Below are positions 27,791 to 48,403 of a stretch of DNA of 64,000 nt, piece by piece. Position 1 is the first letter of the stretch. Every line of letters begins with the position of its first letter. The DNA is from Geodermatophilus sp. DSM 45219 (GTDB lineage Bacteria > Actinomycetota > Actinomycetes > Mycobacteriales > Geodermatophilaceae). The stretch covers positions 62,001 to 126,000 of the forward strand of contig NZ_FNIQ01000002.1 of NCBI RefSeq assembly GCF_900104025.1, in the 5' to 3' direction. The notes under the pieces are model-generated. The model saw only the letters and a program-made list of their open reading frames with translations, searched no databases and had not been told where the DNA came from. Made by a program: the position numbers and the translations under genes.

Positions 27791-28558
27791 ATGACCGCCG
27801 TGCTGCCCGACCTCACCGTGACCGAGGCCGAGGTCAGGGCCGCGCTGGGCACCGTCGTCGACCCCGAGCTGGACGAGCCGATCACCGACGTCGGCTTCGT
27901 CCGCTCGGTGTCGGTCCAGGGAGGCGCCGTCGAGGTGCACCTGCGGCTGCCCACCTCCTTCTGCGCGCCGAACTTCGCCTGGCTGATGGTCTCCGACGCC
28001 CACGACGCGGTGTCCGCCGTCCCGGGGGTGGGATCCGTGGTGGTCGAGCTCGACGACCACCACGACTCCGACCTGATCAACCGTGGGATGGCGGCCGGGC
28101 TGGGCTACCGGGGCACCTTCGGCCACGAGGCGGAGGACTCGCTCGACGAGCTGCGGGCGACCTTCCAGCGCAAGGCGCACACCGCGGCGATGGAGCGGGC
28201 GATCACCGCCCTCGTCCGCACCGACCCGGCGGTGGACGTCGCGGCGCTCACCCTCGGCGACCTGCCGGCGGGGGAGCACACCACCGACGCGCTGCTGCGC
28301 CGGCGGGCGACCCTGGGCCTGCCCGTCGACGACGGGGCGCCGGTCCTCGTGCGCGACGACGGCACCCGCCCCGACCCCGCGCAGGCCGAGATGGTGCTGC
28401 GCCGGGCCCGCTCGGTGCGCATCTCCGTCGACGGCAACGCGCACTTCTGCCGGGGTCTGCTCACCACTCGCTACCCCGGGTCGGAGGCCGACCAGACCCC
28501 CCGTCCCGAGGACCGCCTCCTGCTCCCGCTCACCGTCTCGAAGGGAACCCACCCGTGA
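27791..28558 (+). CDS. DUF59/MIP18-domain protein
   Basis: 255 residues. The N-terminal DUF59 domain (about 8-95) contains VVDPELDEPITDVGFVRSV and the Cys-bearing LPTSFCAPNFAW. DUF59 domains occur in iron-sulfur assembly factors (SufT, PaaD) and in MimG-like partners of binuclear-iron monooxygenases. The remaining 150 residues are unrecognised and include a Cys near the end (NAHFCRGLLTTRY). It has a GAGGAGGA ribosome site, and its stop overlaps the GTG of the dehydrogenase. Confidence 0.75.
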   Translation: MTAVLPDLTVTEAEVRAALGTVVDPELDEPITDVGFVRSVSVQGGAVEVHLRLPTSFCAPNFAWLMVSDAHDAVSAVPGVGSVVVELDDHHDSDLINRGMAAGLGYRGTFGHEAEDSLDELRATFQRKAHTAAMERAITALVRTDPAVDVAALTLGDLPAGEHTTDALLRRRATLGLPVDDGAPVLVRDDGTRPDPAQAEMVLRRARSVRISVDGNAHFCRGLLTTRYPGSEADQTPRPEDRLLLPLTVSKGTHP

Positions 28559-29580
28559 AGGCCGTCCGCGTGCACGAGTACCACGCCGACCCCACGATCG
28601 ACGACATCCCCGAACCGCAGCTGCAGGGTCCCCTCGACGTCATCGTCAAGATCGGTGGCGCCGGGGTCTGCCGGACCGACCTGCACATCCTCGAGGGCCA
28701 GTGGGCCGACATCCAGAACCCGGAGCTGCCCTACGTCATCGGGCACGAGAACGCCGGCTGGGTGCACGCGGTCGGGGAGGGCGTCACCAACGTCGCCGTC
28801 GGTGACACCGTCATCCTGCACCCGCACCCGAGCTGCGGGCTGTGCATGCCCTGCCGCGCCGGCCGGGACATGCAGTGCGAGAACGCCTTCTTCCCCGGGC
28901 TGTCCAACAACGACGGGGGCATGGCCGAGTACCTGCGCACCACCGCCCGCGCCTGCGTGAAGCTCGACCCGTCCACCAACCCCGCCGACGTCGCCGCACT
29001 CGCGGACGCGGGCATCACCGCCTACCACGCCGTGCGCAAGGCCCTGCCGCTGCTGCACCCGGGCACGACGGCGGTCGTGCAGGGCGCCGGCGGTCTCGGC
29101 CACATCGGCGTCCAGTGCCTGGCCGCACTGTCGGGCACCCGGATCGTCGTCGTCGACCGCAACCCCGATGCCCTGGAGCTCGCCCGGCAGATCGGCGCCG
29201 ACGAGACCGTGGTCGCCGACGGCAACCAGGTGCAGGCGGTCCAGGACCTGACCGGCGGGGGCGCGGACGTCGTCTTCGACTTCGTCGCCGAGCAGGGCGC
29301 GGAGATGGACGGCTGGCACATGACCGGCCCGGCCGGCTCGTACTACGTCATCGGGTACGGCGGCGAGCTCCGGATCCCGACGCTGGACTTCGTCGCCGGC
29401 GAGAAGAACATCGTCGGCAACATCGTCGGCACCTACACCGACCTGGCCGAGCTGATGGTGCTCGCGCAGGCCGGGAAGGTCACCCTGCACACCCAGCAGT
29501 ACCCGCTCGACCGGGCCGTGGACGCGCTCCGCGACCTCGACGCCGGGAAGGTCCGGGGCCGGGCGATCCTCGTGCCCTAG
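28555..29580 (+). CDS. Zinc-dependent NAD(P) alcohol dehydrogenase
   Basis: 341 residues. The catalytic zinc region has GVCRTDLHILEG and GHENAGWVHAVGEG. The four-cysteine structural zinc loop CGLCMPCRAGRDMQC is intact. The Rossmann motif is GAGGLGHIGVQCLAAL near residue 178. It resembles the alcohol dehydrogenase that closes propane-oxidation operons and oxidises secondary or primary alcohols. The GTG overlaps the DUF59 stop (GTGA). A two-hairpin terminator region follows. Confidence 0.88.
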   Translation: MKAVRVHEYHADPTIDDIPEPQLQGPLDVIVKIGGAGVCRTDLHILEGQWADIQNPELPYVIGHENAGWVHAVGEGVTNVAVGDTVILHPHPSCGLCMPCRAGRDMQCENAFFPGLSNNDGGMAEYLRTTARACVKLDPSTNPADVAALADAGITAYHAVRKALPLLHPGTTAVVQGAGGLGHIGVQCLAALSGTRIVVVDRNPDALELARQIGADETVVADGNQVQAVQDLTGGGADVVFDFVAEQGAEMDGWHMTGPAGSYYVIGYGGELRIPTLDFVAGEKNIVGNIVGTYTDLAELMVLAQAGKVTLHTQQYPLDRAVDALRDLDAGKVRGRAILVP

Positions 29581-29585
29581 AAGGA

Positions 29586-29687
29586 CCACCCTTCTCCCCA
29601 CGCTGCGCAGACTCAGCGCGGGCCCCTGAAGGGTGGCCGTTCCAGCACGTCGCCAGGGGCCGTTCCGGAGTGATCCGGAGCGGCCCC
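29586..29687. terminator. Two hairpins between convergent genes
   Basis: The first is a 9-bp stem (29586-29594 with 29628-29636) enclosing a small CGCTG/CAGCG hairpin. The second is a 14-bp stem with one G-T pair (29656-29669 with 29674-29687) and a GTGA loop. Together they separate the alcohol dehydrogenase operon from the convergent coiled-coil gene. Confidence 0.75.
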
Positions 29688-29731
29688 TCGGCGTTCCGCC
29701 CGGTCCCGCCTGCCCTCGGGTGGTGCGCCGG

Positions 29732-30913
29732 TCAGGGCTCGTGCGGCCCGGCCGAGGCCGGGCCCGGAGCCGCGGGTGGCGGCTGATCGGTGCCGGGCGC
29801 CGCGTCGGCCGGCCGCCCCGCGGCGGGCTCCGCCCGCCGGGCACGCAGCGCCTCCTCCAGCCGGGCCTGCGCGGCGACCGCCCGGTCCCGCGCCTCCTCG
29901 GCGGTGAGCCGGTCGCGCCGGCTCTCCTCGGCCCGGCGCTCCGCGCGCTCGGCACGGACCGCCTGCGCCTCCGCCCGCCCGGCCTCGGCCTCCGCCCGCG
30001 CGTCGGCGGCACGCGCGCGGCCGTCCGCGGCGGCGGCCTCCAGCCGGGCCGCCGCTGCCGCCTGCTCGGCGCGGTGCACCGCCTCCGCCGTCTCTGCCCG
30101 GACGCGTTCGAGCTGCTCGCGGGCGGCCCGCTCGGCCGCCAGTGCCTCGTCGCGCGCCGCGTCCGCGTGCGCCGCCCGCTCCCGTGCCGCCGCCGCGTCG
30201 GCGACCGCCCGGTCCCACCCCTGCTGCGCCCGGGCCTGCTCACCGCGCGCGCTCTCGGCGTCCCGCACCGCGGCGTCCCGCCGGCGCTCGGCGTCCCGTC
30301 GTCCCGCGTCGGCCTCCGCCCGGGCCGCCTCCGCCGCGCCGAGGTCGAGGCGCGCCCGGTCGGCCTCCGCGTGTGCGACCTCGGTCGCGGCCTGCGCGGT
30401 CGCGGCCTCGTCCCGGGCGACGGCCGCCTCCTCCCGCGCCCGGGCGGCACCGTCCTCGGCCCGGGCGGCGGCCTCGAGCGCCTCCCGCGTCGTCCGCTCG
30501 GCGACCGCCCGCAGCCGGTCGGCGGCCGACGCCCGCTGCTCGGCCTCGGCGACCTCCCGCCGCGCGTCGGTGCGGATCGCCGCCCGCTCTGCCTCCAGCA
30601 GCTCGGCGTCGGCGGCCCGGGTCAGCGCGTCGGTGGCTGAGTGCACCTGCTCCTCGATCGCGGCCAGCGTCTGGCGCAGCCGGTCGGCGACCCGGGTGAG
30701 CGTGTCCGCCGCGCGGGGCGCGGGCGGCGTCCCGGCGGGCGTCCCGCCGGGGGCGGGGGAGTCCTCGGCGGCCCGCGCCCGGCGGGCGGCGAAGGCGGTC
30801 GTGCGGTTGTGGTCGGGGCGGGCGCAGTAGGCCGACCTCCCGCCGGTGGGCGGGGGCGGGGCCACCGGCAGCTCACAGCCGGGGAAGGCGCACGCGGCCG
30901 ATGGGGCGGTCAT
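29732..30913 (-). CDS. Long Ala/Glu/Arg coiled-coil protein with N-terminal Cys/His cluster
   Basis: 393 residues from the ATG at 30911-30913 (AGGA nine bases upstream; a TTG at 30943 is an alternative). The N-terminus has Cys8, Cys13, Cys30 and His35 (CAFPGC and YCARPDH), spaced like a small zinc-binding motif. Residues 70-360 are almost uninterrupted heptad-rich helix composed of Ala, Glu, Arg and Asp. The tail is Pro/Ala-rich. Overall it resembles KfrA-like, plasmid-borne coiled-coil proteins in style, without a clear KfrA DNA-binding head. It is divergent from a tyrosine recombinase, 105 bases apart. Function unknown. Confidence 0.65.
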   Translation of the reverse strand: MTAPSAACAFPGCELPVAPPPPTGGRSAYCARPDHNRTTAFAARRARAAEDSPAPGGTPAGTPPAPRAADTLTRVADRLRQTLAAIEEQVHSATDALTRAADAELLEAERAAIRTDARREVAEAEQRASAADRLRAVAERTTREALEAAARAEDGAARAREEAAVARDEAATAQAATEVAHAEADRARLDLGAAEAARAEADAGRRDAERRRDAAVRDAESARGEQARAQQGWDRAVADAAAARERAAHADAARDEALAAERAAREQLERVRAETAEAVHRAEQAAAAARLEAAAADGRARAADARAEAEAGRAEAQAVRAERAERRAEESRRDRLTAEEARDRAVAAQARLEEALRARRAEPAAGRPADAAPGTDQPPPAAPGPASAGPHEP

Positions 30914-30928
30914 GCCGCCATCCTGCGC

Positions 30929-30969
30929 CCGTTCGTCCGTCAAAGCTCGCTCAACACACGAACGAACGG
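30929..30969. repeat. 8-bp inverted repeat in the coiled-coil/recombinase divergent region
   Basis: CCGTTCGT (30929-30936) and ACGAACGG (30962-30969) face each other across 25 bases, just upstream of the coiled-coil gene. It could be an operator for that gene. Weak by itself. Confidence 0.35.
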
Positions 30970-30998
30970 CGTCGGGTCGGGGAGACGAGACGCCATCC

Positions 30999-31027
30999 GC
31001 ACTCCATAATCAACTCTTATGGAGTCC
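30999..31027. other. dif-like inverted repeat overlapping the recombinase start codon
   Basis: The arms GCACTCCATAA (30999-31009) and TTATGGAGTCC (31017-31027) match at 10 of 11 positions as inverse complements. They flank a 7-base spacer, TCAACTC. The inner CATAA and TTATG equal the inner ends of XerC/XerD sites such as E. coli dif, which has a 6-base centre. The recombinase ATG (31019-31021) lies inside the right arm. CATAAT at 31005-31010 could also be a -10 box giving a leaderless transcript. The site could be a recombination core, an autoregulatory operator, or both. Confidence 0.5.
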
Positions 31028-32038
31028 GCCCCGGAAGACCTCAGGACGTCGACACAGTCGGTCGTGCCGGCCGTCGCCGAGGGCGGGCTGCTCCTCCCCG
31101 GGGACGTCGCGTCCGTCGGCCGCTACCTCGGCGCGGCGCGCGCCGACTCGACCCGGAAGGCCTACGACGCGGACTTCCGCGCCTGGTCGGACTGGGCCCG
31201 GCGGCGCGGCTTCACCCCGCTGCCCGCGGCCGACAGCGCGGTGGCGACCTACCTCGCCGCGCTCGGCGACGCGGGGGCGAGCCCCCGCACCATCGCCCGG
31301 CGGCTGTCCGGCATCGGGCACGCCCACCGCGAGGCCGGTCACCCCAGTCCGTCGGAGCACCCGGGCACCCGCGAGGTGCTCCGGGGCATCCGCCGCACCG
31401 CGGCCCGCGACGGCCGCCGCCCGCGCAAGGCGCGTGCCCTCGACACCGCGACGATCCGGCTGCTCGTCGAGGAGCTGCCCGACGGCGTGGCCGGTCTGCG
31501 CGACCGGGCGCTGATCCTGACCTCGTTCGCCCTCGGGCTGCGGGCGTCGGACGCGTGCGGGCTGGACGTGGCCGACCTCGTGCCGGCCGGGCACGGCGGC
31601 CTGGACGTCACCATCGGCCGGTCGAAGACCGACCAGGAGGGCGCCGGCGAGGTGCTGGCGCTCGCGCCGGGGGTGCGGGCGCGGACCTGCCCGGTGCGCG
31701 CCCTGCAGGCGTGGGTCGACGCGGCGGGCATCGCGGGGGAGGACGGGCCGCTGTTCCGCAGCGTCGGGCGCGGCCCGACTCCCCGGATCGGGCGCACCCG
31801 GATGGCCCGGTCCTCGGTCCGGCTTGTCCTGCGCCGCGCCGCCGAGCGCGCCGGCGTCCCGCTCGACGGGCTCAGCCCGCACAGCCTCCGCCGGTCGTTC
31901 GCGACCGAGGGCTACAAGGCCGGCGTGACCGAGCGGGAGCTGGCCCGCACCGGGCGGTGGGCCTCGGTCACGACCATGCGCGGCTACGACGCCAGCAGCC
32001 GCTGGGCCGATCCGGCGTCCGCCCGGCTCGGCCTGTGA
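31019..32038 (+). CDS. Tyrosine recombinase/integrase
   Basis: 339 residues. The SAM-like core-binding domain spans about 30-125. The catalytic domain has Arg175 (LGLRASD), Lys203 (RSKTDQ), His288 and Arg291 (SPHSLRRSF), Trp314 in the usual second-His position (TGRWAS) and nucleophile Tyr323 (MRGYDASS). All catalytic residues needed for DNA strand exchange are present. No Shine-Dalgarno precedes the ATG, consistent with a leaderless message. It is divergent from the coiled-coil gene. No att-flanked element or phage gene was seen around it, so it does not look like a simple prophage integrase. Confidence 0.88.
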   Translation: MESAPEDLRTSTQSVVPAVAEGGLLLPGDVASVGRYLGAARADSTRKAYDADFRAWSDWARRRGFTPLPAADSAVATYLAALGDAGASPRTIARRLSGIGHAHREAGHPSPSEHPGTREVLRGIRRTAARDGRRPRKARALDTATIRLLVEELPDGVAGLRDRALILTSFALGLRASDACGLDVADLVPAGHGGLDVTIGRSKTDQEGAGEVLALAPGVRARTCPVRALQAWVDAAGIAGEDGPLFRSVGRGPTPRIGRTRMARSSVRLVLRRAAERAGVPLDGLSPHSLRRSFATEGYKAGVTERELARTGRWASVTTMRGYDASSRWADPASARLGL

Positions 32039-32060
32039 GGACGCCCGGCGGCCGGCGTCC
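32039..32060. terminator. Hairpin between recombinase and convergent gene
   Basis: GGACGCC (32039-32045) pairs with GGCGTCC (32054-32060) immediately after the recombinase stop. The same arm sequences recur in the hairpin at 52747-52771. Confidence 0.6.
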
Positions 32061-32066
32061 CCGGGG

Positions 32067-32681
32067 TCAGAGCACCGACCAGCCCGCCGGGAGCTCCCGC
32101 CGGCCGGTGGCGGCCAGCAGGAGCGGCCCGGCCCGGCCGTCGGCGACGGCCAGGTCGGCGACCAGCCGCAGGGCCTGGGCCGCCACCGCGGCCGGGACCT
32201 CCAGCGGCAGACCCAGCGCCGTGGCGAGGTCCGCGGTGTGCACGGCCAGCTCGAAGGTGCGCGTCGGCAGGTAGTCGGCCAGGCGCATGCCCCCCGCCAC
32301 CGTCGTGAGCAGCTCGGTGCCGTCCCGGGCGTCGACGAGCGGGACCACGCGGGCGGCGACCTGCGCCACGGCGGCCGCGGGATCCGGCCCCAGGGCGACC
32401 CCGGCCTGGCGTCCGCGGGCGGCGACCTCGGGGCCGGCGGCGATCGCCCGCGTGGCGCGGACGTAGTCGGCGGCGGACCGGATCCCGACGCTCCCGGCGG
32501 GGCGCTCGAGGTAGCCCTCGACCGTCAGCAGCGACCGGCTGGTGTGGCCCACGAGGGCGCGGACGTCCCACTCGCCCAGACCGGGCCGGCCCCACCGGTC
32601 CCCGACCAGGGCGCTGGTGCGGACGAACCACGCGGCGGCGTCGCCGAAGGCCCGGCGCGAGTCGTCCCACGCAGACGGCAT
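32067..32681 (-). CDS. Maleylpyruvate-isomerase N-terminal domain (mycothiol-dependent DinB-like) protein
   Basis: 204 residues. The N-terminal DinB-like helical bundle contains WDVRALVGHTSRSLLTVEGYL, whose GHT matches the first metal His of mycothiol-dependent MDMPI_N proteins. A second metal region is TFELAVHTADLATALG near residue 145. The family includes mycothiol-dependent maleylpyruvate isomerase and many thiol transferases of unknown substrate. It stands alone, converging on the recombinase gene. Confidence 0.75.
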   Translation of the reverse strand: MPSAWDDSRRAFGDAAAWFVRTSALVGDRWGRPGLGEWDVRALVGHTSRSLLTVEGYLERPAGSVGIRSAADYVRATRAIAAGPEVAARGRQAGVALGPDPAAAVAQVAARVVPLVDARDGTELLTTVAGGMRLADYLPTRTFELAVHTADLATALGLPLEVPAAVAAQALRLVADLAVADGRAGPLLLAATGRRELPAGWSVL

Positions 32682-32823
32682 GCCGGCCAGCCTGGCACGG
32701 CGCAGGGGGGGTCAGGCGCGCGCGGACCGCGGGCGGCCTCGGTCCCGACGACGTCGGAGCACTCCTCGCTGGTCGACCGGATGACGCGCCGCACCGGGCC
32801 ACTCGATTGACATTCGATAGGTA

Positions 32824-33321
32824 GTGAACGATCGTCGATGGGTGCTCACGACGCGCCGGGTGGTCGGCCCGCTCCGGATCCTGCTCGCGCTGGCCTTCGC
32901 CGCCCTGCTGGTCGCCCAGGTCGCCGTCCTGCCCCCGCTGTGGGCGGAGATGGCGCAGGAGTCGCCGAACAGCCAGTTCTGGCGGTGGGGGACGCTCGTG
33001 GGGACGATCCTCGGGCTGGCCTGCGTCCAGGTCGTCATCGTGTGCACCTGGCAGCTGCTCACCCTGGTCCGCGACGACCGCATCTTCAGCGACGCGTCCC
33101 TGGTCTGGGTGAACGCGATCGTGGGTGCGATCGGCGCCGCCGAGCTGCTGCTCCTCGGCTGCTTCGCCTGGTCCGCCCTCACCTGGGAGCACCCCGGGCT
33201 GCCGGTCGCCCTCCTGGTGATGCTGGTGGCCGGGGCCGCGCTCGGGCTGCTCGTCGTGGTGCTGCGCGCGCTGCTGCGGCAGGCCACGACGCTGCGGGCG
33301 GACCTGGACGGGGTCATCTGA
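32824..33321 (+). CDS. DUF2975 membrane protein
   Basis: 165 residues with four hydrophobic helices: about 18-40, 62-84, 104-126 and 134-154. The domain begins with a long first helix and has the DUF2975 motif RDDRIFSDASLVWVNAIVGAIG (quoted in part) in the loop after helix two. DUF2975 proteins are regularly paired with a small YozG-like HTH protein, as here: the stop shares its A with the next ATG. Upstream, ATTGACATTCGATAG at 32806-32820 may contain a promoter or operator. Function is unknown; it may act as a membrane partner of the HTH protein. Confidence 0.75.
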   Translation: MNDRRWVLTTRRVVGPLRILLALAFAALLVAQVAVLPPLWAEMAQESPNSQFWRWGTLVGTILGLACVQVVIVCTWQLLTLVRDDRIFSDASLVWVNAIVGAIGAAELLLLGCFAWSALTWEHPGLPVALLVMLVAGAALGLLVVVLRALLRQATTLRADLDGVI

Positions 33322-33527
33322 TGCCGATCGTGGTGCGCATCGACGTCGAGCTGGCCAGGCGCAAGATGAGCGTCGGGGAGTTCGCCGAGCGGGTCGGGCT
33401 GACCCCGGCCAACGTGGCGGTGCTGAAGAACGGCCGCGCCAAGGCCGTCCGCTTCAGCACCCTGGAGGCGATGTGCCGGGTGCTGGACTGCCAGCCCGGC
33501 GACCTGCTCGAGTGGGTCGACGGGTGA
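33321..33527 (+). CDS. YozG-like small HTH regulator
   Basis: 68 residues, essentially one Cro/C1-type helix-turn-helix: MSVGEFAERVGLTPANVAVLKNG followed by LEAMCRVLDCQPGDLLEW (quoted in part). That build is typical of YozG. The ATG overlaps the DUF2975 stop by one base, and the stop overlaps the GTG of the FAD enzyme (GTGA), so three genes are coupled. It probably regulates its own operon. Confidence 0.8.
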   Translation: MPIVVRIDVELARRKMSVGEFAERVGLTPANVAVLKNGRAKAVRFSTLEAMCRVLDCQPGDLLEWVDG

Positions 33528-34648
33528 CCGGCGACGCCACCGCGGACGTGCTGGTCGTCGGCGCCGGGCTGGCCGGGTTGCACACGGCCACGGAGCTCGC
33601 CCGGCGCGGCCACGACGTGCTGCTGGCCGAGCGGCGGCCCACGCTCACCGGGGCCATCCGCACCACGGGGATCTTCGTCCGCAAGACCCTCGACGACTTC
33701 CCGCTGCCGCCGGAGTGCCTGGGGCCGCCCATCCGGCGGGTGGTGCTCTACCCGCCGGGGCTGCGCCGCCCGGTCGACCTGGTCAGCGACCGCGACGAGT
33801 ACCGGGTCGGCGACATGGGGCCGCTGTACCTGTCCGCCGCCCGCGCCGCGGCCGACGCCGGCGTGCGGCTCGCGCTGGGCGTCCGCTACGCCGGCCGCCG
33901 GGACGACGGCTGCTGCCTGCTGGAGGGCCGCGACGGGCCGGTGCGCATGCGGGCGCGGTTCCTCGTCGGCGCCGACGGGGCCCGCTCGCGGGTGGCCCGC
34001 GACCTCGGCCTGGACCGCAACCGGCACCTCATCGTCGGCGCCGAGGAGGTCTTCGCCGTCCCCGGCGGCGACGGGCCGCCCACCTTCCACTGCGTGCTCG
34101 ACCCCTCGCTGGCCCCCGGCTACCTCGCCTGGGTCGTCAACGACGGGCGGCACGCGCACGTCGGCGTGGCCGGCTACGCCGACCGCTACCCCGACGGCAT
34201 GCGCCGGGCCCTGGCGCGCTTCGCCGGCTCGGCGCCGGGACTGCCCGGCGGCGACCGCCCGACGGAGGTGGAGCGGCGCGGCGGCCCGATCCCCGTCGGC
34301 GGCCTGCTGCGCCGGATCGGCGGCCCCGGGGGCCTCCTGGTGGGGGACGCGGCCGGTGCGGTCTCCCCGCTCACCGCCGGTGGCCTCGACCCGTGCCTGC
34401 GGTTGTCGCAGCTCGCGGCCGACGTCCTCGACGACGCCCTGCGGGCGGGGGTGCCGGACCCGCTGGCCGGTTACGACGGAGCCGCGCTGCGCGCCCGCTT
34501 CCGCGGGCGGCTCGCGCTGCGCCGGGGACTGGCCCAGGTGCGCACACCCGCCGTCGCGGCGGCGGTGTTCCCCCTGCTGCGGACGCCGGTCGGGCGGGCC
34601 GCGGCCCGCCGGGTCCTCTTCGGCGACCGGTCCTTCCCCGACGGCTGA
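33524..34648 (+). CDS. FAD-dependent oxidoreductase, geranylgeranyl-reductase-like
   Basis: 374 residues. The N-terminal FAD Rossmann motif is VLVVGAGLAGLHTATELARRG. A central ARFLVGADGARSRVARDLGL and the C-terminal GDAAGAVSPLTAGGLDPCLR complete the family pattern of geranylgeranyl reductases and related monooxygenase-like flavoproteins. It may reduce isoprenoid double bonds or oxidise a small molecule. It is translationally coupled to the YozG-like HTH gene, which is an unusual partnership. Confidence 0.75.
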   Translation: MTGDATADVLVVGAGLAGLHTATELARRGHDVLLAERRPTLTGAIRTTGIFVRKTLDDFPLPPECLGPPIRRVVLYPPGLRRPVDLVSDRDEYRVGDMGPLYLSAARAAADAGVRLALGVRYAGRRDDGCCLLEGRDGPVRMRARFLVGADGARSRVARDLGLDRNRHLIVGAEEVFAVPGGDGPPTFHCVLDPSLAPGYLAWVVNDGRHAHVGVAGYADRYPDGMRRALARFAGSAPGLPGGDRPTEVERRGGPIPVGGLLRRIGGPGGLLVGDAAGAVSPLTAGGLDPCLRLSQLAADVLDDALRAGVPDPLAGYDGAALRARFRGRLALRRGLAQVRTPAVAAAVFPLLRTPVGRAAARRVLFGDRSFPDG

Positions 34649-34657
34649 CCGGGTGGG

Positions 34658-35113
34658 TCAGCGCCCGTTGCGGCTGCGGTAGCGGGCGGCGCGCCGGGCC
34701 GCGGCGGCCCGCCGGCGCTCGCTGTCCCGCTGGTCGCGCAGGTGCGCGGCGTGCTCCCGGTGGGCGGTGGCGGTGCCGGCCGGGTAGCCGGCCTTGACCA
34801 CCCGGTTCTCCGTGGTCTCGGGCATGTAGGCCAGCGAGTAGATCAGGCCGAGGAAGACCCCGCCGCCGGCCACGGCGGCGCGCAGCTCCCAGGACGCGGG
34901 CAGGAGGACCATGATCAGCACGATCGGGATCGACATCTGGACCAGCATGCGGGCGATGTGGCGCAGCCCCCAGGTGCCGGTCGTGGTGTCGTGCAGCACC
35001 CAGCCGCGGTGGCGCGCGGGCAGCCCGCCGCCGAGGGCGTACCACAGCCACCGGTGCGGAGCGGGCCGGACGACCGGCTCGGAGGTCGTGCCGGGCTCGT
35101 CGGGCTGTGCCAT
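34658..35113 (-). CDS. DUF5313 family membrane protein
   Basis: 151 residues from the ATG at 35111-35113. The conserved entry HRWLWYALGGGLPARHRGWV and WVLHDTTTGTWGLRHIARML are hallmarks of DUF5313, an actinobacterial family. Two hydrophobic helices (about 58-76 and 81-100) follow, then a basic tail with many Arg. Function is unknown. It converges on the FAD gene with ten bases between stops. A GTG at 35146 is an alternative start. Confidence 0.7.
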   Translation of the reverse strand: MAQPDEPGTTSEPVVRPAPHRWLWYALGGGLPARHRGWVLHDTTTGTWGLRHIARMLVQMSIPIVLIMVLLPASWELRAAVAGGGVFLGLIYSLAYMPETTENRVVKAGYPAGTATAHREHAAHLRDQRDSERRRAAAARRAARYRSRNGR

Positions 35114-35228
35114 GACCGGTGTCCGCTCCCGTCCGGTGGTGTCCACGCCCCGATGGTCCCCGAGGATGATGGGCACGCCAAGCATTGGGGCACCAACTGT
35201 CGCCGATCGCACAGTGTGCCGGTCGCGC

Positions 35229-35741
35229 TCAGCCGTCGCCGGACGCCGCTCCGCCGGTCCGCGGAGCGGCGGACAGCGCCTGCTGCGAGGCGGCGATGAC
35301 CTCGGTGAGCGCGCCGTGCAGGGAGACCAGCTCCTCCACCGGCATGCCCAGGCGCTCCACGATGCCGGCGGGGATCGATTCCGCCCGCGCGCGCAGGGCC
35401 TGGCCCTCCTCGGTCAGGGCCAGCGCCAGGTTGCGCTGGTCCCGCGGATCGCGCTCGCGGCGCAGCAGGCCGGCCGCCTCCAACCGCTTGAGCAGCGGCG
35501 ACAGGGTGCCGGGGTCCAGCTGCAGCAGGCCGGAGAGCTCCTTGACCGACAGCCGGCCGTGCTGCCACAGCGCCAGCATCACCAGGTACTGCGGGTGGGT
35601 CAGCCCCAGCGGCTCGAGCACCGGCCGGTAGACGGCGACCACATTGCGGGCGGCCACCGAGAGGGCGAAGCACACCTGCCGCTCCAGGGCGAGCGCGTCG
35701 CCGGGGTCCAGGGCCGAGGGCGTCGTCCGGCTGGTCGTCAC
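35229..35741 (-). CDS. MarR-family regulator, OhrR-like
   Basis: 170 residues. The winged helix spans about 55-120 and includes LTHPQYLVMLALWQHGRLSV and LDPGTLSPLLKRLEAAGLL. Cys24 (ERQVCFALS) matches the peroxide-sensing cysteine of OhrR. No ohr gene is adjacent. It is transcribed in the same direction as the ole operon, after it. It could sense organic peroxides or lipid oxidation; the Cys supports this but the target is unknown. Confidence 0.85.
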   Translation of the reverse strand: MTTSRTTPSALDPGDALALERQVCFALSVAARNVVAVYRPVLEPLGLTHPQYLVMLALWQHGRLSVKELSGLLQLDPGTLSPLLKRLEAAGLLRRERDPRDQRNLALALTEEGQALRARAESIPAGIVERLGMPVEELVSLHGALTEVIAASQQALSAAPRTGGAASGDG

Positions 35742-35815
35742 CGGCCCAGCCTAGGACCGTGGCCGGCCGGCGGTCGGGGCGCCGACGGCCGGAGCACCCC
35801 TTGCCGGAGGACGCC

Positions 35816-36805
35816 TCAGCGTGCCGCCGGACGCGGGCCCGCGGCGGCGTACCAGGCGGCCAGGCGGGCGAACCCCTCCTCCAGGGCGACGTGCGGGCGC
35901 CAGCCCAGCGCGGCCCGGGTCCGCCGCTGGTCGAACCAGTGCGCGGTCGCCAGCTGCTCGGCCAGGAAGCGGGTGAGCGGGGGGACCGTGCGGCGTCCCG
36001 TCGCCGCCCAGACCCCGTCGACCAGCGCGCCGGCCAGGAACGCCGCCCGGGAGGGCACCCGGCCGCGCGGGCCGCGCACCCCCGCTGCCCGGCACAGCCG
36101 GGTGAGCACCTCGGCGACCGGGCGCGGTTCGCCGTTGGACACGACCAGCGCCTCGCCGTGCACCGGCCCGCAGGCGTCCACCGCGGCGACCAGGGCCGCG
36201 GCGGCGTTGTCGACGTAGGTGGTGTCGACCAGGGCCGCGCCGGACCCGATGACCGGCAGCCGCCCGGCCCGGGCCCGCTCGACGATGCGGGCGACGAGCT
36301 GGGTGTCGCCGGGGCCCCACACCAGGTGCGGGCGGACGGCCAGGACGGCGAGCCCGGCGGAGTCCGCGGCCAGGGCGTCCAGCTCGGCCACCGCCTTGGA
36401 GCGCGAGTAGGGCCCCCGGGCGGACGCCGGGTCGGCCGGTCCGGCACCGACCCCGGTCAGCGCCGTCCCGGCGTGCGCCACCGACGGGGACGAGACGTGC
36501 ACCAGCCGGCCGACGCCCTCGGCCCGGCAGGCGTCGACGACGGTGCGGGTGCCGGTGACGTTGGCCGCGGCGTACTCCGCCCACGGGCCGGTGACGTCGA
36601 CCTTCGCGGCCAGGTGCAGCACGGCGTCCTGGCCGCGGGCGGCGCGCCGCACGACGTCGGGGTCGGCGACGTCCCCCAGCTCCTCGCGGCACGGCAGGCC
36701 GGCGGGACGGCGCTGCAGCACGGTGACCTCGTCGCCCCGTGCGAGCAGCGCCTCGGCCGTGGCCCGGCCGAGCATCCCGCTCGCGCCGGTGACCAGCACC
36801 CTCAC
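35816..36805 (-). CDS. oleD: OleD: NADPH-dependent 2-alkyl-3-ketoacid reductase
   Basis: 329 residues from the GTG at 36803-36805. The extended short-chain dehydrogenase fold has VRVLVTGASGMLGRATAE at the N-terminus and catalytic Tyr133-Lys137 (GPYSRSKAVAE). It is annotated by family as 3-beta-hydroxysteroid dehydrogenase/epimerase. The context (oleA and an oleB-oleC fusion directly upstream, ten bases from the fusion stop) identifies it as OleD. OleD reduces the beta-keto acid made by OleA to a beta-hydroxy acid in long-chain olefin synthesis. Confidence 0.85.
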   Translation of the reverse strand: MRVLVTGASGMLGRATAEALLARGDEVTVLQRRPAGLPCREELGDVADPDVVRRAARGQDAVLHLAAKVDVTGPWAEYAAANVTGTRTVVDACRAEGVGRLVHVSSPSVAHAGTALTGVGAGPADPASARGPYSRSKAVAELDALAADSAGLAVLAVRPHLVWGPGDTQLVARIVERARAGRLPVIGSGAALVDTTYVDNAAAALVAAVDACGPVHGEALVVSNGEPRPVAEVLTRLCRAAGVRGPRGRVPSRAAFLAGALVDGVWAATGRRTVPPLTRFLAEQLATAHWFDQRRTRAALGWRPHVALEEGFARLAAWYAAAGPRPAAR

Positions 36806-36815
36806 GACCGCACCC

Positions 36816-39374
36816 TCACGACCGGCCGGCCAGCACCCGCGCGGCCCGGCGGGCGACCTCCCCGCGGTCCACCTTCGACTGGTGCCGGACGTCCACCGGC
36901 AGCCGGCCGGCGAGGAGCACCGCGGCGACGTCGACGCCGGCGACCGCCCGCACGGCGTCGGCCAGGTCGGTGCCGGCGAGCCGCAGCCGGCCGGCCCGGC
37001 CGGAGCGCGCCGGGTCGGTGCCGTCCGCCACGACGACCACGACGACGACCTGCGTCCCGGCCGGGCCGACGCCGACGGCCGCGGCCGCCGACACCCCGGG
37101 GAGCTGCTCCACGCGCTGCTCGACGCCGACGGGCGTGACCGGTCCGGCGGCGGTGGTGACCACGTGCGGGAGGCGGCCCTCGACCCACAGCCGGCCCTCG
37201 GCGTCCAGGTGCCCGACGTCGCCGGTGCGGTGCCAGCCGGGGTCGCGGGACGTCGTGCGCTCCAGCGCCCACAGCGCGTCGTAGCGGTCCTTGACGTGCG
37301 CGGCCCGCACGCAGACCTCACCCACCACGCCGGCGCGGTCGGTCAGCGGACCGTCGGCGGTGCCGTCCGGGGAGAGCGGGCTGACCCGCACGTCCACGCC
37401 GGGCAGCGGCGGCCCCACGCAGACGCCCTCCCCGTCGCCGGCGGCCTCGATCCCGGCCAGCGACACGTCGGTCACCGGCAGCACCTCGGTCATCCCGTAG
37501 GGGGTGTGCGCGTCGGCGGCCGGCAGGACCTCCCGCAGCGAGCGCAGCAGGGCCGCCGGGACCGGCGCGCCGGCCGACATCAGCAGCCGGATCCGGGCCA
37601 GCGCCGCGCGCTGGTCGCCCGCGAGGTCCGGCGCGGTGGCCGCGACGCGCCGCAGCGCCGCGGGTGAGGCGAAGACGACCGTGGCGTCGACGGCGGCCGC
37701 GGCGTCGGCCAGCGCCGCCGCGGTCAGCGACCCGGGCGCGGTCACGTCGACGTCGGGGACCGCCGACCCGATGCCCAGCGCCGGCCCGAGGATCGCGAAC
37801 GGGGCGAACGCCGCGACCAGCCGGTCGGTGCCGGTGAGGCCGTAGGCGGCCCGCACCAGCTCCAGCTGCGCGGCGGCCTGGCGGTGGGTGTAGACGACGC
37901 CCTTGGCCGGGCCGGTGGCGCCGGAGGTGAACAGCACGGCGCAGTCGGCGTCCACCGGGGGAGCGGCGGGGGCGGGCGCCGTCCGGCCGAGCGTCTCCAG
38001 GTCCTCCAGCGTCGAGGGAGCCCCGAGCGCGCGCAGCGCGGCCGCAGGGACCCGGCCGGCGGCGATCCGGGAGCCGGGCAGGCCCATCAGGCGCGCCGCG
38101 GCCAGCCCCGTCGCGCTGCCGACGACGGCGTCGACCCCGGCGCTGCGCAGCGCCCGCCGCATCCCGGCGAAGCCGAGCCCCTTGTCCGCGACCACGACCA
38201 CCGCACCCGCGCGCCAGACGGCGTAGACCGCGGCGGTGAGGTCGGCCGATGGCTCCACGAGGAGCGCGACGCGGTGTCCCGGGCGGACGCCGGACGACGC
38301 CAGGCCGGCGGCCAGGTCCGCGACCCGCCGGGCCAGCCCGGACCAGGTCACCGTCGCGCCGCCGACCTCCACGACCGCGGGCGTGTCGTCGTCCGACCGC
38401 TCGTCCAGCGCCGACCACAGCCGGCGCCGGGCCCCGCCGGGCGGAGCCGGCCGTGCCGCCGCGGGGTCGTGCCCGGCGTCGAGGTCGGCCACCCACCGCA
38501 CGACGGCGTCGGCGTACTGCGGGGCGTCCTCGGGCAGCAGGTGCGAGGCGCTCTCGTAGCGGTGCAGCCGGGCCCGGGGCAGCCGGCTGCGCAGGTCGGT
38601 CAGGTACCGCTCGCCGAAGACCGGGTCGCGCGGGCCCCACAGCAGCAGCGCCGGGACGTCGAGGGTGCGGATGCCCTCGGCGATCGCCTCCTGCACCGGG
38701 CGGGACGGGTGGCCGGGGGAGAACGGGATGTCGGCGACGAAGTCCCCGACGGCGCGTCGTCGCGCCGCCGACCGGTAGGGGGCGGCGAAGGCGTCCCGGA
38801 CGTCGGCGGGCAGCGCCGGCCGGGACAGCGCCGTCGTCGCCCGGACGAACACCGGGGTGCCGACGGTGACCGCCGAGCGCACACCGGGGGCGTGGGCCAG
38901 CCGGATCAGCGCCGGGCCGAGGTCCCCCTCCGGCATGGCGACGGCGGTGTTGGCCAGGACGACGCCGCGCAGCTGCTCGCGGTGCTCCAGGGCCCAGCCG
39001 AGGGAGATGACCCCGCCCCAGTCGTGGCCGACGGTGACCACCGGGCCGGTGACCCCCAGCGCCGCCGTGAGGTCGCCGAGGTCGGTCACCCGCTGGCGCA
39101 GCGACCGCGGCCCGGGCAGCCGGTCGGAGAAGCCCATGCCGAGGTGGTCGGGGGCGACGACCCGCCAGCCGGGCGGCGCGGCGGCCACCAGCCGGCGCCA
39201 CAGGTAGGACCAGGTCGGGTTGCCGTGGACGCACAGCAGCGTGCCGACCGGGTCGGGGACGCCGTTGTCGAGGACGTGCCAGCAGTGCTCCGCGCCGGTG
39301 TCGTCGGCGACGGTCACCGAGCGGGACCAGGCGGGGTCCAGACCGGGGAGGGCGGCCGGGGAGTCGGGCCTCAC
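36816..39374 (-). CDS. oleBC: OleBC fusion: beta-lactone decarboxylase plus beta-lactone synthetase
   Basis: 852 residues. Residues 1-300 are an alpha/beta hydrolase of the haloalkane dehalogenase type with nucleophile Asp118 (VGHDWGG) and CVHGNPTWSYLWRRL: the OleB domain. Residues about 330-852 are an AMP-forming synthetase with FTSGATGPAKGVVYTHRQ near 500, PYGMTEVLPVTD and the C-terminal HQSKVDRGEV: the OleC domain. OleC closes a beta-lactone from the beta-hydroxy acid and OleB decarboxylates it to a cis-olefin. The domain order B-C matches actinobacterial OleBC fusions. The GTG overlaps the oleA stop (GTGA). Confidence 0.9.
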   Translation of the reverse strand: MRPDSPAALPGLDPAWSRSVTVADDTGAEHCWHVLDNGVPDPVGTLLCVHGNPTWSYLWRRLVAAAPPGWRVVAPDHLGMGFSDRLPGPRSLRQRVTDLGDLTAALGVTGPVVTVGHDWGGVISLGWALEHREQLRGVVLANTAVAMPEGDLGPALIRLAHAPGVRSAVTVGTPVFVRATTALSRPALPADVRDAFAAPYRSAARRRAVGDFVADIPFSPGHPSRPVQEAIAEGIRTLDVPALLLWGPRDPVFGERYLTDLRSRLPRARLHRYESASHLLPEDAPQYADAVVRWVADLDAGHDPAAARPAPPGGARRRLWSALDERSDDDTPAVVEVGGATVTWSGLARRVADLAAGLASSGVRPGHRVALLVEPSADLTAAVYAVWRAGAVVVVADKGLGFAGMRRALRSAGVDAVVGSATGLAAARLMGLPGSRIAAGRVPAAALRALGAPSTLEDLETLGRTAPAPAAPPVDADCAVLFTSGATGPAKGVVYTHRQAAAQLELVRAAYGLTGTDRLVAAFAPFAILGPALGIGSAVPDVDVTAPGSLTAAALADAAAAVDATVVFASPAALRRVAATAPDLAGDQRAALARIRLLMSAGAPVPAALLRSLREVLPAADAHTPYGMTEVLPVTDVSLAGIEAAGDGEGVCVGPPLPGVDVRVSPLSPDGTADGPLTDRAGVVGEVCVRAAHVKDRYDALWALERTTSRDPGWHRTGDVGHLDAEGRLWVEGRLPHVVTTAAGPVTPVGVEQRVEQLPGVSAAAAVGVGPAGTQVVVVVVVADGTDPARSGRAGRLRLAGTDLADAVRAVAGVDVAAVLLAGRLPVDVRHQSKVDRGEVARRAARVLAGRS

Positions 39375-40396
39375 CAGGCGATCTCGAGGCAGGAGGCGTT
39401 CAGGCCCGACCCGATGCCCATGAGCAGCACCCGGTCGCCGTCGACGAGGGAGTCCTGCCGGTCGGCGAGGGTGAAGGGGACCGAGGCCGGGCCCAGGTTG
39501 CCGCGGGTCGGGAAGGTCGTGGGCACCAGCGCGGGGTCGATGGAGAACCGGTCGCACATCGCCTGGGTGTGCACCTTGGAGACCTGGTGGACGATGTAGC
39601 GGTCCATGCCGCCGGCCCAGTCGAAGTCGGCGGCGGCGTCCACCCACAGGTCCGCTGACAGGGCGAGCCCGGCGTCGAGCAGCCCCTTGAGGTCGGTCCG
39701 CATGAGGTCGTTGTCGCCGACGCACAGCTCGTGGTGCTCGCTGCCCGCCCGGCTGGCCGACCCGACGAGGCGGTGCCCCTCGGGGTGCTCGTCGGCGCGG
39801 CCCAGCACCATGGCGGCGGCGCCCGAGCCGAGGGTGAGCGTGGCGAACTGCGCCAGCACGTCCTTGGAGACGGTGCCCGGGCCGTTGAGCCGCTCGATGG
39901 TGCGCTCCTGGACCGGCCGCGAGTCCTCGCCGTTGACGACGAGGGCGTACTCGACCATCCCGGAGTCGATCATGGCGGCGGCCAGCTCCATGCCGTTGAC
40001 GAACCCCAGGCAGGCGTTGGTCACGTCGAAGTTCTGGCAGGAGCGCGGCAGGCCCAGCGCGTGGTGCACCGCGACCGCGGTCGAGGGCTCCAGGTGCTTG
40101 CGGCTCACCGAGGTGTTCACCATCAGCCCGATGGCCGCCGGGTCGACGCCGCTCTCGCTGACGGCCTTGGCGCCGGCCGTCGCGGCGCCGTCGACGAAGG
40201 TGACGCCGTCGGCCCACCAGCGGCGCTCCCGGATGCCCGCGAGGCGCTCGAGCAGACCGGGCCGCAGCCCCACCCGCCGGTAGGTGTCGGCGAGTGCCTC
40301 GTCGAACGCGTCGGAGCTGATCACCTGGGAGGCGTCGGCGGTCTGCACGGCCAGGACGGCCGTGTTGGTGAACCGGTGTGTGGCGTTACCGCTCAT
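39371..40396 (-). CDS. oleA: OleA: thiolase-superfamily acyl-CoA head-to-head condensing enzyme
   Basis: 341 residues. The catalytic triad is Cys129 (FDVTNACLGF), His270 (YIVHQVSK) and Asn300 (TRGNLGPASVP). Glu103 in HLEPSTA marks the OleA-specific glutamate. OleA joins two fatty acyl-CoAs to a 2-alkyl-3-ketoacid in the cytoplasm. It is the first gene of oleA-oleBC-oleD; the upstream 140 bases must hold the promoter. No desaturase or other tailoring gene is attached. Confidence 0.92.
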   Translation of the reverse strand: MSGNATHRFTNTAVLAVQTADASQVISSDAFDEALADTYRRVGLRPGLLERLAGIRERRWWADGVTFVDGAATAGAKAVSESGVDPAAIGLMVNTSVSRKHLEPSTAVAVHHALGLPRSCQNFDVTNACLGFVNGMELAAAMIDSGMVEYALVVNGEDSRPVQERTIERLNGPGTVSKDVLAQFATLTLGSGAAAMVLGRADEHPEGHRLVGSASRAGSEHHELCVGDNDLMRTDLKGLLDAGLALSADLWVDAAADFDWAGGMDRYIVHQVSKVHTQAMCDRFSIDPALVPTTFPTRGNLGPASVPFTLADRQDSLVDGDRVLLMGIGSGLNASCLEIAW

Positions 40397-40537
40397 CTGC
40401 TCGTATCAGTCCTCGATGGGGGAGTCGCTGGTCTGCGGCGGTCGGGTCGGGTCCGGACGTCCGGGAGCCGATACCCGGCCGACGCCCTGTGTACCCGGCG
40501 GGACGGGGGTGCCGGTCGCCACGGCACGGGGGCGCGC

Positions 40538-41008
40538 TCAGGGGCGGGCGCGGTCGATCAGCCGGGAGAGCACGACCTCGCTGCGGGTCTGGTGCACGTT
40601 GGGCTGCTGCCGGAGCCGCTCGATGGCCTCCTCCAGGTGCGGGATGTCGGCGGCCAGGATGTGCACCAGCGCGTCGGCGGAGCCGGTGACGCTCCACGCG
40701 CCGACGACCTCGGGCACCTTCTCCAGGCTGCGGCGCAGCTCCAGCGGGGACGGCGTCCCCTCCCAGTAGACCTCCACGTAGGCCTCGGTCGCCCAGCCGA
40801 GCACCTCGGGGTCGACCAGCGCGGTGAACCCGCGGATCACCCCCTCGGCGAGCAGCCGGTCGACGCGGCGCTTGACCGCCGGCGCCGACAGCCCGACCTC
40901 CGCGCCGACGACCGCGTAGGTGGCCCGCGCGTCGCGGGTCAGGCAGCCGATGATCTGCCGGTCGAGGGAGTCCAGCCGGTCCGCGGTCCTCTGCAACACA
41001 CCGTGCAC
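40538..41008 (-). CDS. Lrp/AsnC-family regulator
   Basis: 156 residues from a GTG at 41006-41008 (GTG at 40999 is equally possible). The N-terminal HTH reads LDSLDRQIIGCLTRDARATY and VGLSAPAVKRRVDRLLAEGVIRGF. A C-terminal RAM ligand-binding domain follows. It is divergent from a class III aminotransferase gene, the standard arrangement for control of ornithine or lysine catabolism. A direct repeat in the shared region is a probable binding site. Effector unknown, probably an amino acid. Confidence 0.9.
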   Translation of the reverse strand: MHGVLQRTADRLDSLDRQIIGCLTRDARATYAVVGAEVGLSAPAVKRRVDRLLAEGVIRGFTALVDPEVLGWATEAYVEVYWEGTPSPLELRRSLEKVPEVVGAWSVTGSADALVHILAADIPHLEEAIERLRQQPNVHQTRSEVVLSRLIDRARP

Positions 41009-41021
41009 CGTAGCCGCACAC

Positions 41022-41053
41022 GCGCAACGGATCGATGGCCGGAGCGCAACGGA
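41022..41053. promoter_or_regulatory. Direct repeat in the lrp/aminotransferase divergent region
   Basis: GCGCAACGGA occurs at 41022-41031 and again at 41044-41053, 22 bases apart (two helical turns), 100-130 bases before the aminotransferase ATG. This spacing fits cooperative binding by an Lrp-type regulator. Confidence 0.5.
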
Positions 41054-41152
41054 GGTGCATTGATCGCGCCTCCCGGCGTCCCTAACCTCTGCCTTACACG
41101 GTCCCGGCCGGCCCGGCCGCGGTCCGAGGTCCGATCCGCGAGGAGGCCCCCC

Positions 41153-42391
41153 ATGGTCACGGCGCAGCGCAGCGAGGGCCGGTTGTCCTCGAGCGGGCAC
41201 ACGGCGCTCACCAGCGCGGTCACCGCCCCCAACTACGCGCCGCTGCCGGTGGTCGTCGCCGAGGCCCGCGGGGCGTGGGTGACCGACGTCGAGGGACGGC
41301 GCTACCTCGACTGCCTGGCCGGGTACTCGGCGCTGAACTTCGGCCACGGGCACCCGGTGCTGCTGCGGGCGGCGCGCGAGCAGCTGGAGCGGGTGACGCT
41401 GACCAGCCGGGCCTTCTACAACGACCGCCTCGGGCCCTTCGCCCGCGACCTGGCCGCCCTCGCCGGGATGGACCAGGTGCTCCCGATGAACACCGGCGCC
41501 GAGGCGGTGGAGACGGCGATCAAGCTCAGCCGGCGCTGGGGCTACCAGGTGAAGGGCGTCCCGGCGGACCGGGCGCAGATCGTGGTCGCGGCGGGCAACT
41601 TCCACGGCCGGACCACCACGATCGTCAGCTTCTCCACCGACGACTCCGCGCGCGAGGGCTTCGGCCCGTTCACGCCGGGCTTCACCGTCGTCCCCTACGG
41701 CGACGCCGAGGCGCTGCGGGCCGCGCTCACCCCGGAGACGGTCGCGGTGCTCATCGAGCCGATCCAGGGCGAGGCCGGCGTCATCGTGCCGCCGCCGGGC
41801 TACCTGGCCGCGGTGCGGCAGGCCTGCACCGACGCCGGGGTGCTGCTCGTCGCCGACGAGGTGCAGTCCGGGCTCGGCCGGACCGGGGCCACCTTCGCCT
41901 GCGAGCTGGAGGGCGTCGTCCCCGACGTGTACCTGCTCGGCAAGGCCCTCGGCGGCGGCATCGTGCCGGTCTCGGCGGTGGTCTCCACCCGCGAGGTGCT
42001 GGGCGTCTTCACCCCCGGCAGCCACGGGTCGACGTTCGGCGGCAACCCGCTGGCGGCCGCGGTCGGGCACGCGGTGGTGGGCCTGCTGGAGACCGGCGAG
42101 TACCAGGAGCGGGCGGCCAAGCTCGGGGTGCACCTGCGGGACCGGCTCGAGGGCCTGGTCGGGCACGGCGTGCAGGCGGTGCGCAGCCGCGGTCTGTGGG
42201 CCGGCGTCGACATCGACCCCGGCCTGATGACCGGACGGGCGGCCTGCGAGGGGCTGGCCGGGCGCGGCGTGCTGGTCAAGGACACGCACGGGTCCACCAT
42301 CCGGCTGGCGCCGCCGCTGGTGATCGAGCCCGAGGACGTCGACCGGGCGGTGGACGCCCTCGCCGCGGTCCTCGCCGGCGGAGGCCGCTGA
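41153..42391 (+). CDS. rocD: Class III aminotransferase, ornithine/lysine aminotransferase type
   Basis: 412 residues from the ATG at 41153 behind AGGAGG. PLP lysine is Lys264 (YLLGKALGGG), with Asp235 in LLVADEVQSGLGRTG. TGAEAVETAIKLSRRWGY and the N-terminal APNYAPLPVVVAEARGAWV are typical of RocD. The enzyme moves a terminal amino group of ornithine, or possibly lysine, to 2-oxoglutarate, giving a semialdehyde. Lrp lies divergent and an aldehyde dehydrogenase follows 155 bases downstream. RocD is the best name, but a lysine or omega-amine substrate is possible. Confidence 0.8.
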   Translation: MVTAQRSEGRLSSSGHTALTSAVTAPNYAPLPVVVAEARGAWVTDVEGRRYLDCLAGYSALNFGHGHPVLLRAAREQLERVTLTSRAFYNDRLGPFARDLAALAGMDQVLPMNTGAEAVETAIKLSRRWGYQVKGVPADRAQIVVAAGNFHGRTTTIVSFSTDDSAREGFGPFTPGFTVVPYGDAEALRAALTPETVAVLIEPIQGEAGVIVPPPGYLAAVRQACTDAGVLLVADEVQSGLGRTGATFACELEGVVPDVYLLGKALGGGIVPVSAVVSTREVLGVFTPGSHGSTFGGNPLAAAVGHAVVGLLETGEYQERAAKLGVHLRDRLEGLVGHGVQAVRSRGLWAGVDIDPGLMTGRAACEGLAGRGVLVKDTHGSTIRLAPPLVIEPEDVDRAVDALAAVLAGGGR

Positions 42392-42546
42392 CCCGTCGCC
42401 GGCCGCGACCCCGGTCGAAAGGCGCACCCGAGCCCTCCGGCGGCGTCGTCCCCGGGGTCGCGTTCGGCACCGGTGGCGACGAGGGTGTGTCCGTGGGCTA
42501 CGACCTGCGGTCCCCGGCCGGACACACACCCGCACAGGAGCAGACC

Positions 42547-44076: not shown

Positions 44077-44096
44077 GCACGCACCCGTCGCCGTGA

Positions 44097-44252
44097 CGGC
44101 GGCGGACACCAGGCACCCGGGACGGGGACGTCGTCGACGACGCCGTCGCCCTGGCCACCGCCGCCCGGCGGCTGGCCCAGGACCGCGTCCTCGCCGCCAT
44201 GCGGCTGCGCGGGCAGCTCCCGACGGACGCCCACCCGGAGCCGCTGCCGTGA
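44097..44252 (+). pseudogene. Startless coding-like remnant
   Basis: An open frame of 51 codons after an in-frame stop, with no ATG, GTG or TTG until a late internal ATG. It ends AARRLAQDRVLAAMRLRGQL plus a short tail. The predicted end is helical and has coding-like third-position GC. It lies in the 291-base gap between the ALDH and FAD-oxidase genes. It may be the 3' end of a lost gene. The rest of the gap (to 44367) contains nothing I recognise. Confidence 0.3.
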
Positions 44253-44367
44253 GCCGGGTCCGGACAGGAGCTGGAGTGGAGGAGCGACGTAGCAGAGGTG
44301 GTCCCGTACCGCTGTCGACCACGACGATGACCGCACGCTGCAGCGTCCCCGTCCTCCGAGGACTGCG

Positions 44368-45543: not shown

Positions 45544-45571
45544 GCACCACACCGAACCGAGGGAGCACTCC

Positions 45572-47101: not shown

Positions 47102-47110
47102 CCGCGGCGG

Positions 47111-48295: not shown

Positions 48296-48403
48296 CGCGA
48301 CCGTCCTCCCGCTCGGCCCGTCGTGACGCGCAGGACGCTACCGACCCCCACCGGGGACGAGCCGGTCCGCCGTCGCAGGGCCGGGTGGTCGTCCGACCCC
48401 GGC

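Follow-up and report, generated by a model that had tools for sequence, protein, structure and literature searches.

A putative crossover site at the start codon of a Cre/TnpS-like recombinase gene in a terminus-region module of Geodermatophilaceae

An inverted repeat that covers the start codon of a tyrosine recombinase gene in the soil actinobacterium Geodermatophilus sp. DSM 45219 would best be explained as the core (crossover) site of that recombinase, as part of a resolvase-type module of the terminus region in which the same site would also be an operator, and to this reading we assign a probability of about 0.6. It is supported by arms that are exact in 18/18 clade-A genomes while eight different spacers lie between them, by the co-divergence of site and enzyme, and by a dN/dS of 0.163 for the recombinase. 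The features concerned are listed below by their positions in the window, that is, the whole stretch of 64,000 nucleotides that was analysed.

29732-30913, minus strand: divergent partner gene, 393 aa, a motif-bearing reading frame present in 28/28 loci examined
30929-30969, no strand assigned: accessory inverted repeat CCGTTCGTCCGT-N17-ACGAACGAACGG, 11/12 paired
30999-31027, no strand assigned: core dyad, 10/11 arm match, with perfect 9-bp inner arms
31001-31009: left arm, ACTCCATAA
31010-31016: spacer, TCAACTC (7 bp)
31017-31025: right arm, TTATGGAGT
31005-31010, plus strand: CATAAT, by its sequence perhaps the -10 box of an mRNA that is leaderless or nearly so
31019-31021, plus strand: start codon ATG, inside the right arm
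31019-32038, plus strand: Cre/TnpS-like tyrosine recombinase, 339 aa, assigned by homology and invariant active-site residues

The site, the recombinase and its partner

The first-pass annotation had placed the dyad correctly and had seen the ATG of an intact tyrosine recombinase in one of its arms, and both observations stand: the 11-bp arms (30999-31009, GCACTCCATAA; 31017-31027, TTATGGAGTCC) agree at 10/11 positions, their inner 9 bp are perfect on either side of the 7-bp spacer, and an intact frame of 339 aa begins with the ATG at 31019. Dyads with 11-bp arms, at least 10 matches, a spacer of 6-8 bp and at least 40% A+T number two in the window, the core dyad and another of 11-7-11 form at 52985-53013 (GGCGGTGATCAGCTGAGCTGATCACCGCA), and 40 first-order Markov resamplings of the window yielded a mean of 0.05 and a maximum of 1 of these A+T-rich dyads. 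When the A+T condition is dropped such dyads become common (30 in the window vs a mean of 12.3 in the resamplings), and it is therefore the A+T content, together with the conservation, that carries the case for the dyad.

Judged by its sequence, the enzyme is a Cre/TnpS-like recombinase and not a Xer protein. The residues R175, K203, H288, R291, W314 and Y323 are invariant in 28 aligned sequences (the alignment leaves out four partial matches on short contigs, namely those of G103, G105 twice and the second G107 copy, as well as loci L008 and L017), and they match the R-K-H-R-W-Y of the Cre active site. The best relatives of solved structure are those of Cre, to which the protein is 26.5% identical, and it is 35% identical over 319 aa (138 bits) to a TnpS-like protein of plasmid pND6-1 and 29% identical over 322 aa (103 bits) to one of pWW0; the plasmid records carry no TnpS or TnpT names, and these were assigned from the layout and from the presence of Tn4651 on pWW0. 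The scores against Xer models lie far below the cut-offs (63.8 bits vs 279 for PRK00283, 57.5 vs 329.6 for XerD and 46.8 vs 335.15 for XerC), and the recombinase splits from three Xer-type proteins of the host with a support of 99/98, in a tree that has many long and uncertain branches. Relatives on plasmids amount to 592 records at E 1e-15, all of less than 60% identity, and phages contribute one distant recombinase match. The gene is under purifying selection, with a median dN/dS of 0.163 (range 0.066-0.278) in 91 clade-A pairs. Structure prediction in the module gave a mean pLDDT of 60.4 and a pTM of 0.48.

The order of the module is divergent partner, accessory repeat, core site and recombinase. 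The partner, found in all of the 28 loci examined among the 30 of clades A and B (L008 and L017 are not in this set), has an N-terminal C-x4-C...YC-x4-H motif that is followed by a long Ala/Arg/Glu-rich stretch, which from its composition is probably a coiled coil. Searches of Pfam, PHROG and PADLOC returned no match for it, and comparison with two TnpT-like plasmid proteins gave 15.0 bits (E 4.0) and 14.6 bits (E 4.4), that is, no detectable kinship; those two proteins both contain a KfrA_N domain and align with one another at 62 bits. Relatives of the N-terminus occur in at least 6 of 396 genomes of the phylum, the window genome included, when the best candidates are scored per genome; no plasmid protein matches the partner at E 1e-3, and a search of the open-licence literature for "KfrA" with a tyrosine recombinase and a coiled coil found nothing. 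At locus L159 (7301-8560) a protein of the partner family lies near a ParB-like gene, so named from its sequence, which suggests that on plasmids or islands the family may have a role like that of KfrA.

By eye, a repeat of the accessory type recurs in the clade-A alignment at a varying distance from the core, and the DNA between the two varies in length and is not conserved. This repeat is proposed as the putative binding site of the partner protein.

Conservation of the site and its divergence with the enzyme

The full-length relatives of the recombinase in the genus and family form clade A (15 loci and that of the window, 84-89% identical) and its sister, clade B (57-63% identical; 14 loci), in a survey that scored the ten best candidates per genome, so that absences of the recombinase are not exhaustive. 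In all 16 full-length clade-A loci the dyad is kept with at most one mismatch, and over 14 aligned loci its 25 bp are 97% conserved, as compared with 51% for the 40 bp next to it on the upstream side and 55% for those on the downstream side. A scan allowing up to 2 mismatches found the exact 8-bp inner arms at 19 sites in 18/112 family genomes, and these are precisely the 18 with a clade-A recombinase (best candidates scored per genome); the other 94 contain three matches with 2 mismatches and none with 1. G107, a draft 70% complete, has two clade-A recombinase copies and two sites on contigs C268 and C317, with one spacer base different.

Between the unchanged inner arms there are eight spacers: TCAACTG, TCAGCTG, TCACCTG, TCAACTC, TGTTCTG, TGTTCTT, TCAACGC and TCAACGG. 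Over the 19 sites 5/7 spacer positions vary, and 2/7 do so in the 14 aligned loci, which are the best ones, most of the variants outside these coming from drafts that are 67-80% complete; the first spacer base, T, is invariant in the 19 sites and is also the last base of CATAAT. To judge from these sequences, invariant arms around a variable spacer behave like the core site of a tyrosine recombinase.

In the sister clade 9/14 loci have a different dyad at or just before the start, close to CTTCCGAGAA-GCACCTA-TTCTGCGAAG, with 0-5 mismatches to a consensus that was typed from those same loci, and at L053 the dyad GGTTCGAAGAA-gtccgct-TTCTCCGAACC was identified by eye. Four further loci (L049, L057, L058 and L060) have only a weak, poorly symmetrical dyad of this second kind. 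In these four (genomes G023, G009, G024 and G015) a gene read from its sequence as HNH/endonuclease VII-like stands between the site and the recombinase, and the weak site still adjoins the partner's repeat. Further away, L154 (G131, of another family of the order) has both genes of the module, partner and recombinase, along with a perfect dyad of 11-7-11 form whose sequence is of a third kind, ACCTCCGATAA-gtgaaca-TTATCGGAGGT. At L070 (G117) a recombinase and a partner-like gene are present and the dyad was looked for and not found, and among 13 distant relatives (about 30-40% identical) only four have, by the rule applied, an A+T-rich dyad upstream, L065-L067 and, weakly, L072, with spacers of 5 or 8-9 bp. 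The comparison of these sequences shows that site and enzyme have diverged together.

The position of the start codon bears on what the site could do. At the window locus an in-frame TAA (31007-31009) 12 nt upstream of the ATG excludes an earlier start, and the ATG of the site is thus the first possible one; the same holds in 14/14 clade-A loci examined, where the ATG is in frame with no stop after it and the TAA stands at the same distance. Among the 10 clade-B loci examined, 7 have a GTG or ATG in frame at the end of the site. CATAAT begins 14 nt before the ATG, no Shine-Dalgarno sequence is visible, and a consensus promoter scan returned no sigma-70 match and did not pick up CATAAT. In the available text of PMC3160421, the leaderless signal of bacteria lies about 12 nt upstream of the start, and leaderless genes are described as common in Actinobacteria.

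These properties, with the invariant last T of CATAAT, are what could be said for a promoter as the only reason for the A+T-rich stretch, an alternative that the first-pass annotation had itself set against its proposal. It would leave unexplained the conservation of the outer parts of both arms as well as the different dyad that the sister clade keeps in the same place. The dyad is conserved upstream of the orthologues in both its arms, beyond what a promoter alone requires, and the symmetry of the arms and the co-divergence largely refute the promoter reading, which we hold to be very improbable.

Another possibility is that the recombinase has lost its recombining activity and now sits on the dyad at the start of its gene as an autorepressor or an architect of DNA. 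The start codon within the site in the 14 clade-A loci, the GTG or ATG at its end in clade B and the single site of the window genome would all suit such an operator. Against it, the catalytic residues are all invariant, the tyrosine among them, the gene is under purifying selection, and it is the spacer that varies and not the inner arms, as in a crossover site; we would leave to it a small but appreciable chance.

Position in the genome, dif and mobility

The first reading of the repeat was as a dif-like site of Xer type. A dif was predicted on the basis of the Frankia alni sequence given in PMC3025954, a source whose available text states that no actinobacterial dif has been experimentally confirmed, and it is single-copy in 32/33 genomes searched; in the window genome it lies at G000:C11:169622, where the sequence departs from the pattern by 1 mismatch, and is separated from the module by 76.6 kb. 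Each of the 26/26 genomes of the genus gives two Xer-type matches, whether the module is present or not, and those of the window genome fall one above the model cut-off (366 bits) and one just below it (277.3 vs 279). The CATAA and TTATG inner ends, taken earlier as a Xer signature, are absent from the sister clade. The core site shares with dif the property of being a single site in the terminus region of the chromosome (one copy in G000), and its inner ends are of the expected form; with a predicted dif elsewhere, two Xer-type genes and an enzyme far below the Xer cut-offs, the reading as a Xer site is not supported, and that this would be the chromosomal dif of the organism has next to no probability.

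Of the 26 module-bearing genomes compared, 16 have module and dif on one contig (10 have them on separate contigs), at a distance of 77-306 kb. The recombinase points toward dif in 16/16 and is on the same side of it in 15/16, the one exception being the window genome, for which an inversion around dif would fit; the genomes so measured are related and are not independent tests. Because side and direction are common to clade B (8/8 measurable) and clade A (7/8), the two clades are probably orthologues that have diverged in place along with their sites. In 5 complete genomes the module lies at 0.429-0.482 of the circle from dnaA, and its immediate neighbours vary among genomes.

From such a position one could imagine a second, Xer-independent system for chromosome dimers or decatenation acting from the terminus region, and the constant location and the direction toward dif, kept despite differing neighbours, are in its favour. 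On the other side, two Xer-type genes are present in 26/26 genomes of the genus and a predicted dif in 32/33 genomes searched, the recombinase search at E 1e-20 came up empty in 5/26 genomes of the genus (with the ten best candidates of each genome scored), and in related genomes the position may simply be inherited; its chance appears slim.

In the window, about 19 kb including the module (29600-48400) are situated between an alcohol dehydrogenase gene (28555-29580) and a gene at 48398-49549, and in 4/7 relatives fetched there the latter gene comes 0.5-10.2 kb after the alcohol dehydrogenase.

It had also been suggested that by cutting at its own start the recombinase could switch or mobilise its gene. 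Even when up to 3 mismatches are allowed, the genome-wide scan gives a single copy of the core site in the window genome, and to have only one site in each genome speaks against a switch or an excision of the gene by itself: there is no second site for an invertible switch or an excision, and the layout of phase variation, two inverted sites flanking a segment, is not what is seen. A remnant of a Tn3-family element with its transposase was considered and rejected, PF01526 being found in 0/28 genomes (control positive in 2/14). Flanking genes that differ, and one module location that is empty in three other genomes, are a hint of mobility; a small self-mobile element of two genes was nevertheless rejected, since no conserved end is seen by eye past the recombinase stop codon in 28 loci (on the partner side only four loci were inspected for such an end) and since side and orientation relative to dif are consistent. 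The module is read as inherited within a fluid terminus region.

A related alternative is an attachment site for incoming circular elements that bear the same core site. That the chromosome has one such site, conserved but for a variable spacer, and that relatives of the recombinase are common on plasmids at the distant level given above, would be in keeping with this, as would the case of G166 (L153/L073, contig C100), where the partner and a 10/11 dyad are 22 kb from the related recombinase. Near that recombinase, however, no good second site was found, only one weak match with 2 mismatches about 0.3 kb past its 3' end, which was taken as chance; a pattern covering the commonest spacers has 0 exact matches in viral contigs, and no plasmid DNA matches window positions 30900-31300 (401 bp of the module). 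Such an attachment site is improbable.

Known systems and the proposed mode of action

With Cre/loxP of phage P1 the module shares a simple recombinase and a palindromic site, and structures of Cre, whose active site includes a Trp, are the top solved-structure matches; the differences are the 26.5% identity and the dimensions of the site, loxP having 13-bp arms and an 8-bp spacer and the module 9-11-bp arms and a 7-bp spacer. The closest layout is that of TnpT-rst-TnpS of the Tn4651/TnXax1-type Tn3-family transposons, in which, according to the available text of PMC7157771 and PMC4619425, rst consists of core and accessory inverted repeats between divergent genes, with the accessory repeat regarded as the binding site of TnpT and the core as the place where TnpS recombines. 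Common to both are a Cre-like recombinase, a divergent coiled-coil helper and, as far as those texts describe rst, core and accessory repeats in the stretch that separates the genes, a likeness that covers the presence of the repeats and not their order. The module differs in that its helper is unrelated in sequence and has a zinc-type motif instead of KfrA_N, in that it is chromosomal, in the terminus region and without a Tn3 transposase, and in that its core site includes the start codon of the recombinase. It is proposed, by analogy, that the module would work like TnpS/TnpT, and it is not classed as a member, because the tests of helper homology and of a transposon failed.

Two other systems have the site beside the recombinase gene. 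This is so for XerS/difSL and XerH/difH in the available text of PMC5357621, from which the module is distinguished by an enzyme that is not Xer, a site that is not dif, and Xer-type genes and a predicted dif in addition. It is likewise so for TnpI/irs of Tn4430 and Tn5401, where the part of PMC7157771 on these elements describes a core site upstream of the gene and adjoining it, TnpI binding that modulates expression, and direct repeats DR1 and DR2; these irs direct repeats, as described there, were not seen in the module, which has a separate partner gene and no transposase.

If the dyad is indeed the core site of the adjacent recombinase, two recombinase monomers would bind its arms, the partner would bind the accessory repeat and help to build the synapse, and strand exchange would take place within the 7-bp spacer, a division of labour suggested by the rst layout of core and accessory repeats with a divergent helper. 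With one site per genome, two sites could arise only through duplication of the DNA, as in a dimer or a cointegrate, and the likeliest reaction would be the resolution of such direct copies, which might come from chromosome dimers or from integrated circles, or may no longer be formed. As the site covers the start codon and what is probably the promoter, free recombinase would be expected to repress the gene that encodes it. Binding, recombination, the role of the helper, autoregulation and resolution as the biological use are what we infer from these arrangements.

Several points weigh against this explanation. No pair of genomes has been seen in which the site is recombined, the spacer varies at only 2/7 positions in the best loci, no dyad was found at L070 or, by the rule applied, in most of the 13 distant relatives, four clade-B loci have only the poorly symmetrical dyad, and the partner does not resemble TnpT. 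The genomes are moreover equipped with Xer-type genes and dif, and, as no Tn3 transposase was found in 28/28 genomes, there is no known cointegrate to resolve.

For the Geodermatophilaceae, a wider proposal, itself an unlikely one that we would nonetheless keep in view, is that the family possesses a second, Xer-independent terminus system, made up of a Cre-like recombinase, a zinc-motif coiled-coil helper dedicated to it and an oriented site of its own, and resolving chromosome dimers or entanglements of the terminus, in which the site is at once operator and start codon. If the module is active, the question becomes why a terminus-region resolvase module would be kept as well by chromosomes equipped with Xer genes and dif. 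In any case, the family offers natural pairs of Cre-like recombinases and sites, with predicted, testable specificities and at least three site sequences. In these modules a Cre-like recombinase has a helper of another kind, and its putative crossover site includes the codon at which its own translation starts; recombinase binding, the crossover, the repression of the gene and the initiation codon might thus all have to be accommodated in a single short sequence.
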